Of a stretch of DNA of 64,000 nucleotides, positions 35,368 through 36,575 are shown in pieces; positions within the stretch are counted from its first letter, which is position 1; each line of letters starts with the position of its first letter. The DNA is from Pseudohalocynthiibacter aestuariivivens (GTDB lineage: Bacteria > Pseudomonadota > Alphaproteobacteria > Rhodobacterales > Rhodobacteraceae), in assembly GCF_018457175.1 (NCBI RefSeq), contig NZ_JAGFNU010000001.1, positions 186,001-250,000 of the forward strand, written 5' to 3'. The position numbers were made by a program, and so were the translations under genes. Under the pieces are notes generated by a model, which saw only the letters and a list, made by a program, of their open reading frames with translations, ran no database searches and was not told the DNA's origin.

Positions 35368-35392
35368 GCCTTTTCGGATAGAAAACGGAAAG

Positions 35393-35421
35393 ACGCCCTC
35401 GGGAAACCGGGGGCGTTTTTT
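35393..35421 (+). terminator. Intrinsic terminator after rpmD
   Basis: A 10-bp stem (ACGCCCTCGG / CCGGGGGCGT, one T-G pair) with a GAAA tetraloop and a following T run. It ends the operon segment at rpmD instead of running on to rplO. Confidence 0.9.
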
Positions 35422-35542
35422 GCATTGGTGCAAGCAGCAATGGCGCTTGCCCGTAAAGTTTGCCAACAAACAGCGAATCAATTATAAGTTGTTAATAATT
35501 TGTTAAATCGCCTTTATCGCGCAATCTTTTTTAGAGGGGAAT

Positions 35543-35731
35543 ATGAAAAATCTTGTGCTGGTTCTAATTCTGTGCAGCCCAACGTTCGCAGTTGGAAGTT
35601 TTGCCGCAACTTCTACTTCTGCACGTACTTCAATCGAAGAGAGTGAAATTGGGCACAGCGGCGGGTGTCGCAAATCATCCCCACCGGGACGATGTTGTCA
35701 CGCGGGATCTCGACCCTATCACTGTCACTAA
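35543..35731 (+). CDS. Small secreted Cys/His-rich peptide, unknown function
   Basis: A 62-residue product with a good ribosome-binding site (AGAGGGG) before the ATG. The N terminus is a signal peptide (MKNLVLVLILCSPTFA, cleavage near 16-22). The mature part is short and ends in a Cys/His cluster: His38, Cys42, Cys51, Cys52, His53, His60, Cys61 and His62, with GHSGGCRKSSPPGRCCH and YHCH. This spacing suggests metal binding or disulfides. I recall similar HSGGC...YHCH endings in small secreted bacterial proteins but cannot confirm a family. It lies after the rpmD terminator and 293 bases before ectC. Confidence 0.6.
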   Translation: MKNLVLVLILCSPTFAVGSFAATSTSARTSIEESEIGHSGGCRKSSPPGRCCHAGSRPYHCH

Positions 35732-35817
35732 ATGAATATGACCCGAAAAAAGATCGTTGATGATCTAGCCCAGAGCGATTTCAAAGCGTTCGAGCTTTTC
35801 GAATTGGGTTTCTCCCG

Positions 35818-35882
35818 GTGTTATTGGGCGGGCCGCCGCAAATCCAATCAAAGGGATTGCATCTCGAGCCGCCCAATAGCGC
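35818..35882 (+). repeat. Long inverted repeat between the small peptide gene and ectC
   Basis: TATTGGGCGG at 35822-35831 is matched exactly by CCGCCCAATA at 35869-35878. The pairing extends outward by four more positions with two G-T pairs, giving about 14 bp. A smaller AATCC/GGATT stem lies inside. The rest of the 293-base gap between the two genes shows no convincing gene. Confidence 0.6.
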
Positions 35883-36024
35883 ACTAATTGTTAGCGAGAC
35901 ATTGTCTGATCGAAGTGTTCTGAGACTTCAATTTAAATCAGTACCTTTAGTGTTCGGCTAAGGCTTTTCATACGACCTCAATGATGATTAGTTTCGGTTT
36001 ACTGCGTTAAACAGGAGACAGCTT

Positions 36025-36411
36025 ATGATCGTCAGAAACCTCACATCCATCCTTGGCACCGATCGTCATGTTACGGGCGAAGCATTCGAGAGCCGCCGTA
36101 TTCTCCTCGCGGATGACGGGCTGGGTTACTCACTGCACGATACGGTGGTGAAGGAGGGGAATGAACAGCACCTCCAATACAAAAACCATATCGAAAGCAA
36201 CTATTGCGTCGAAGGTGAGGGCGAGGTGGTCAATGTTGCCACTGGGGAAGTACACCCTCTGGGCCCGGGCTCACTTTACACGTTGGACAAACATGATGCG
36301 CATATCCTGCGTGCGACCAGGGGAGATATGCGCCTGATATGCGTTTTTACGCCTGCTCTTTCCGGGCACGAAGTACATGACGACGATGGGGGCTATCCTG
36401 CGTCAGAGTAA
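36025..36411 (+). CDS. ectC: L-ectoine synthase (solitary EctC)
   Basis: A 128-residue cupin that is full length for ectoine synthase, the enzyme that cyclises N-gamma-acetyl-diaminobutyrate to ectoine. It starts MIVRNLTSILGT and contains SLHDTVVKEG, LQYKNHIESNYCVEGEGEV, LYTLDKHDAH and the terminal GHEVHDDDGGYP. Glu57, Tyr85 and His93 line up with the iron ligands known for EctC. CAGGAGACAG gives a strong ribosome-binding site. No ectA, ectB, ectD or ask_ect lies anywhere in the window. It is set between rpmD and rplO, inside what is normally one ribosomal operon. Orphan EctC proteins are known in bacteria that do not make ectoine from scratch. Confidence 0.9.
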   Translation: MIVRNLTSILGTDRHVTGEAFESRRILLADDGLGYSLHDTVVKEGNEQHLQYKNHIESNYCVEGEGEVVNVATGEVHPLGPGSLYTLDKHDAHILRATRGDMRLICVFTPALSGHEVHDDDGGYPASE

Positions 36412-36448
36412 TCACCGACGTTGGGTCCGGTATCTGATGGGATAGTGC

Positions 36449-36477
36449 TTGATCGCAGCTATTATCCCGTTTATACG
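36449..36477 (+). promoter_or_regulatory. Candidate promoter for rplO
   Basis: TTGATC and TATACG are separated by exactly 17 bases in the gap between ectC and rplO. It would allow rplO-secY-adk to be transcribed independently of the upstream segment. Confidence 0.6.
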
Positions 36478-36575
36478 CCCCCGGTGGTCTTCTTGACCAC
36501 GAGAATCAAAATCAAGAAAAGCCGTGTTTGGCCCGCTTACGCTTCAGGGGCCATTTCCGGCATAGGAGAAGCGAA

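Follow-up and report, generated by a model that had tools for sequence, protein, structure and literature searches.

A conserved Cys/His-rich peptide gene with an export signal between rpmD and rplO in Pseudohalocynthiibacter aestuariivivens

The peptide gene and its genomic setting

The window analyzed here, a 64,000-nt stretch of the P. aestuariivivens genome, contains at 35543-35731 of the plus strand a 62-codon open reading frame with the product MKNLVLVLILCSPTFAVGSFAATSTSARTSIEESEIGHSGGCRKSSPPGRCCHAGSRPYHCH (Table 1). A sequence-only reading of this DNA had proposed a secreted Cys/His-rich peptide with eight Cys/His residues in its last 25 residues, a good ribosome-binding site and a signal peptide. 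All of this holds: four Cys and four His residues fall within the final 25 residues, the ribosome-binding site AGAGGGG lies 3 nt ahead of the ATG, and the start of the protein is signal-peptide-like, with a hydrophobic helix at residues 2-17 in an AlphaFold model; the peptide is now also backed by homologues and is predicted to be exported. The signal-peptide cleavage site was assigned by eye and from the AlphaFold helix. Within the C-terminal block, H38, G40, G41, C42, C51, C52, H53, H60, C61 and H62 are invariant in our alignment A1, and the same positions are invariant in all 80 unique blocks compared.

Table 1. Features at the peptide locus (positions are those of the window)
Feature	Position	Strand	Basis
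rpmD intrinsic terminator, closing the upstream part of the spc operon	35388..35421	+	RNA fold
TTAA-N7-TTAA box TTAATAATTTGTTAA, CtrA-box form, 36 bp before the ATG	35492..35506	+	sequence pattern
Ribosome-binding site AGAGGGG	35533..35539	+	read from sequence
Signal peptide, residues 1-21, proposed cleavage GSFA/A	35543..35605	+	by eye; model helix 2-17
Variable linker of the mature peptide, residues 22-37	35606..35653	+	unconserved in 26 homologues; missing from short forms
Conserved 25-residue C-terminal block HSGGCRKSSPPGRCCHAGSRPYHCH, residues 38-62	35654..35728	+	invariant positions
Stop codon immediately 3' of H-C-H	35729..35731	+	127/129 distinct forms end HCH
Long imperfect hairpin, possible transcript end, without a T run	35818..35882	+	RNA fold

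The rpmD terminator placed upstream of the gene by the earlier reading is a real hairpin (-26.1 kcal/mol, z -5.18, with 0/200 shuffles as good), which was overlooked by a simple terminator scan and found by RNA folding. Downstream, the region 35800-35900 folds with -38.9 kcal/mol (z -2.77), a value equalled or bettered by 2/200 shuffles. Terminator-like structures follow 10 of 88 copies of the gene (2.5 in shuffles), the window copy being negative. The leader RNA fold of the peptide gene is unremarkable (z -0.67), and no Rfam family scored above threshold at the locus. A second cistron at 35732-35887 (51 aa) was considered and rejected, as it has no homologue at the other loci compared. The peptide gene is apparently an autonomous, monocistronic unit.

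The spc operon is broken between rpmD and rplO (35368-36575), and this gap differs in length and content among related Rhodobacterales, as expected of an insertion-prone site. A solitary ectC lies between the peptide gene and rplO; the gene at 36025-36411 indeed encodes ectoine synthase (Ectoine_synth, 1.5e-53), as the earlier reading had stated. No ectB was found above the family cut-off in the genome, and ectC therefore looks like an orphan. The suggestion that homologues might travel with ectC or with spc operons was borne out in part for the latter and weakly for ectC. Among the best 80 of 337 homologues, ectC is found at the same place in four (L058, L064, L076 and L117), and a partnership with it was rejected on this count. 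In 16 of these 80, rpmD and/or rplO adjoin the peptide gene, both sides being visible in 13; nine of the 16 copies are co-directional with the operon and seven are opposite to it. For 64 homologues outside the spc gap we surveyed the 108 nearest neighbours (genes of 80 aa or more within 1600 bp) and inspected the 25 commonest of their 111 families, which revealed no recurrent partner; they included Flavodoxin_2 in six cases and transposases in two. Without a recurrent neighbour, an operon-based function was dropped, and the genomic neighbours leave the function of the peptide unexplained.

Conservation, selection and distribution

Homologues were detected in 46 of 394 genomes of the family at E <= 1e-7, counting the genome itself, and in 65 of 394 at E <= 0.01, those beyond the 46 being weak. 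A scan of named genomes with a pattern that spanned only the first ten residues (the N-terminal half) of the block returned 337 encoding stretches, of which the best 80 were retained. These 80 stem mostly from Rhodobacterales, together with Pseudomonas, Marinobacter, Halomonas, Litchfieldella and Methylophaga. All of them match the full Cys pattern in a looser regular expression and, found by their N-terminal half only, show the full Cys/His set.

Four Cys and four His residues, an invariant set of potential ligands as expected of a metal-binding peptide, are present in 80/80 unique blocks (the regular expression for these blocks required them). Mean pairwise identity among these 25-codon blocks is 0.85 at the first, 0.89 at the second and 0.41 at the third codon position, and synonymous changes make up 77% of codon differences versus 22% expected of single changes, a pattern that indicates strong purifying selection on the encoded peptide block. 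The earlier reading had named missing homologues and frame-breaking changes in relatives as grounds for giving up the gene; relatives exist in numbers (the best 80 of 337), and their codons carry the mark of purifying selection instead. An open reading frame this short and without a Pfam or NCBIfam name could in principle be spurious, but selection on the 80 blocks and homologues in many genomes refute this reading, to which we give practically no credence. The gene is almost certainly real and almost certainly bears an export signal.

Over all loci compared, the core H-x-GGC-x8-CCH occurs in 129 distinct forms, which end exactly in HCH in 127 cases and in HCHK in two. The block is 25 residues long in 83 forms, 27 in 39, 28 in five and 26 in two. 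In 48 of the 129 the block begins right after an A-x-A site, so that the predicted mature peptide would be the block itself, with His as its first and last residue. Most Rhodobacterales copies, including that of the window, have a variable linker between signal peptide and block.

The gene travels among chromosomes, plasmids and viral contigs. Plasmid copies were found in Pseudomonas, Rhizobium, Sinorhizobium and Pseudosulfitobacter, none of which is annotated in the incomplete annotation tables examined. Thirty-six IMG/VR contigs carry the peptide (22 from a first search plus 14 further ones), mostly in forms of the MDNSxGx linker type, and ten large neighbours on viral contigs include three terminase large subunits, one tail protein and one head protein. 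A search of 50,697 deposited phage records gave 0 matches to the peptide.

Promoter boxes upstream of the peptide gene

The box at 35492-35506 is the sole TTAA-N7-TTAA site in the window. The whole genome (3.9 Mb) has 29 such sites versus 69 for a backward control, showing that the N7 pattern is not enriched genome-wide. In the upstreams of homologues, a repeated GTTAAC was what was first seen. Within 100 bp of the start codon, 79 alphaproteobacterial upstreams (88 records minus gammaproteobacterial ones, short flanks and near-identical upstreams; several genomes of one species may be included, and related species are non-independent samples) contain TTAA-N7-TTAA in 23 cases, TTAA-N6-TTAA in 22 and either in 37. 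Exact N6/N7 boxes thus precede 37/79 homologues versus 0/498 control genes (0/303 intergenic controls); a second control set gave 0/496, and shuffled upstreams a mean of 0.87 and at most 4 of 79. When one mismatch was allowed, the counts rose to 48/79 versus 13/498 for N6/N7 and to 32/79 versus 21/498 for spacings of 4, 5, 8 and 9, and since the other spacings rise too, only the exact boxes are specific to spacings 6 and 7. Such boxes were found in 0/8 gammaproteobacterial copies and in 0/20 viral copies examined, and the latter share no common promoter box.

The form of these boxes resembles that of CtrA sites: Rhodobacterales CtrA has been reported to use TTAAC-N5-GTTAAC (PMC7232146). The genome itself encodes CtrA (74% identity, E 3.9e-100, to a Caulobacter query sequence); the sole N7 site ahead of its ctrA gene has one mismatch. 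Other N7 sites of this genome precede a sigma-70-type factor (read as rpoH), ybjN, ompW and an open reading frame that is pilin-like by eye and has no Pfam match; in D. shibae, rpoH1 has been reported to contain a CtrA site (PMC4046655). A glycosyltransferase of this genome with an MshEN-type N-terminus (L193) and, in another genome, a protein with a similar start (L156) both have two overlapping N7 boxes upstream and represent a probable CtrA target. With a box near its promoter and a CtrA gene in the same genome, the window copy has the sequence features of a CtrA-regulon member, and we consider its box to be probably that of CtrA.

Position complicates this assignment for other copies. In many of them the N6/N7 box sits just 11-32 bp ahead of the start codon; start codons were chosen by a script from ribosome-binding site and hydrophobicity, and the distances may be off. 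At activating CtrA sites of R. sphaeroides, 23-24 nt separate the end of the site from the transcription start, and the ATG follows 12-33 nt further on (PMC6180460); boxes nearer to the start than this would repress or serve another regulator. The N6 boxes might possibly be Crp/Fnr sites, given the NssR motif TTAAC-N4-GTTAA quoted in PMC1274295 and the Dnr/Fnr site TTAAC-N4-GTCAA quoted in PMC7232146. This is disfavoured because N6 sites lie nearer to the start than FNR-like sites (median 29.5 versus 62.5 bp) and because CtrA sites with 6-bp spacing have been reported at two R. sphaeroides promoters, flgB2p/fliI2p (PMC6180460).

FNR-like boxes, TTGAT-N4-ATCAA with at most one mismatch, are present in 10/79 alphaproteobacterial upstreams versus 3/496 controls, and absent upstream of the window copy. 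All of them lie 52-67 bp upstream of the start, the spacing expected for an FNR activator. Neither an N6/N7 nor an FNR-like box is found in 33/79 promoters. Cross-talk between the CtrA and FNR systems is described in PMC7232146.

Relation to the YHYH_alt module and proposed roles

In profile searches no Pfam or NCBIfam family covers the window peptide, and a literature search in PMC on the motif letters found nothing. A PDB sequence search returned chance matches only, none of the solved structures matching the peptide, and in the AlphaFold model the signal helix is the only folded part (pLDDT 67, pTM 0.24). A weak relative, L010, pointed to the NCBIfam entry YHYH_alt (NF033223). None of the peptides scanned reaches its curated cut-off of 30 bits, P0001 giving no match; the best score is 12.3 bits and two of 26 members are weak matches, so by cut-off the window peptide falls outside YHYH_alt. 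Comparison of the peptide family with YHYH_alt by hhalign gave 97.3% over the C-terminal 14 columns (columns 12-25), and the C-terminal half of YHYH_alt, CHx4-6YHCH, is found in the peptide family.

In five A5 proteins and in proteins of viral contigs, the YHYH_alt module reads H-x-GGL-xxx-GCH-x5-7-YHCHR and sits just after the signal peptide, i.e., at the mature N-terminus of secreted proteins. The rest of L010 is Excalibur (Pfam 1.2e-8); other YHYH_alt-bearing proteins are Excalibur-like, SNase-like or peptidoglycan-binding by eye, as are the viral-contig proteins L271-L294, which bear the module at the mature N-terminus. Like the module, the peptide has an H-x-G-G start after the signal peptide and ends in ..CHAGSKPYHCH or ..CHxNRKTGxYHCH, and two linker types between CH and HCH, AGSKP and xNRKTGx/MDNSxGx, are common to both. 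Because of the C-terminal match and the shared linkers, the peptide looks like a freestanding YHYH_alt module with an extra Cys pair. It differs in having C42 and C51 where YHYH_alt has L and G, the two Cys being added by a CRK-SSPPG loop (family form C-RK-[SD]SP-x-G-x-C), and it stops at HCH, whereas YHYH_alt continues with R and a further domain. The Excalibur, SNase-like and peptidoglycan-binding proteins, of which only Excalibur is Pfam-confirmed, share the module at the mature N-terminus, but the peptide lacks their second domain.

Two other systems offer looser parallels. Small periplasmic copper peptides such as CutF of R. capsulatus are likewise exported and Cys-containing; cutF lies before cutO in one operon, whereas the peptide gene has no recurrent partner gene. 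The YHYH domain resembles the peptide block in name only, being a different, larger domain to which the peptide has no Pfam match. It is described in PMC7824862 as tail-associated and histidine-rich with a predicted Zn site.

Our tentative reading, held with slightly less than even confidence, is that of a horizontally mobile, disulfide-braced periplasmic metal-binding peptide switched by CtrA or FNR, in which both metal and regulator are inferred; the metal or disulfide chemistry in the periplasm that the earlier reading suggested is thus still the best guess. The mini-protein would be exported by Sec and its signal peptide then cleaved. In the oxidising periplasm, the disulfides C42-C51 and C52-C61 would most likely close the block H-x-G-G-C-x8-C-C-H-x6-H-C-H into a pair of small loops, and H38, H53, H60, H62 and the terminal carboxylate might coordinate a transition-metal ion, either Zn(II) or Cu. 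The peptide would represent an extra-braced version of the module that elsewhere caps secreted proteins. Transcription in Rhodobacterales may depend on CtrA through TTAA-N6/7-TTAA boxes, with an FNR-type regulator taking this part in another subset, so that the peptide would be produced only in certain lifestyle states. Its putative role is to buffer or deliver metal in the envelope.

Other readings of the same features are less likely. A disulfide-stabilised secreted signal or antimicrobial peptide, whose His residues would serve structure or pH sensing rather than metal, would also be compatible with the C-x8-CC-x8-C framework, the Sec signal, the small size and the CtrA-type boxes, as well as with the plasmid and viral-contig copies; in D. 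shibae, CtrA has been connected with quorum sensing (PMC4046655, PMC6473078). Such a peptide is unlikely here, as the block hardly varies between genera and classes, unlike pheromones or bacteriocins, and the 25 commonest of the 111 neighbour families included no recurrent immunity, exporter or maturation gene. We give similarly little weight to a freed cell-wall- or DNA-binding module, a YHYH_alt cap without its partner domain that would serve the CtrA programme at the envelope or in DNA uptake. The profile match, the place of YHYH_alt at the mature N-terminus of its carrier proteins and the CtrA sites predicted at D. shibae competence genes (PMC6473078) speak for it, but the peptide lacks the R found after HCH in YHYH_alt. 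More improbable still is a phage-derived moron that alters the host envelope, e.g., for superinfection exclusion, and was later domesticated in Rhodobacterales: although viral contigs carry the gene and five of ten large neighbours are terminase, tail or head proteins, the viral copies mostly have another linker type, the 20 of them examined lack the boxes, deposited phage records yielded no match, and the borders of IMG/VR proviruses may contain host DNA.

The metal-binding reading could be extended, in a doubtful form, to a novel metallopeptide family of the envelope, with two disulfides and four histidines, that would link envelope metal handling to a motility/gene-transfer lifestyle. This would combine a liberated YHYH_alt module, transfer among chromosomes, plasmids and prophages, CtrA and FNR wiring in Rhodobacterales, and a mature form that is often His-first (chelating via its amine) with a C-terminal H-C-H.

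The TTAA-N7-TTAA box, the YHYH_alt relation and the plasmid and viral copies go beyond the sequence-only reading. A near-invariant 25-residue peptide with an export signal is common to alpha- and gammaproteobacteria, plasmids and proviruses and has been nameless in the family libraries searched. Its predicted regulation is simple, with a CtrA box in one set of species and an FNR box in another, which makes its role testable in model roseobacters. If established, this role would provide a first function for YHYH_alt, the cap module of many secreted proteins.
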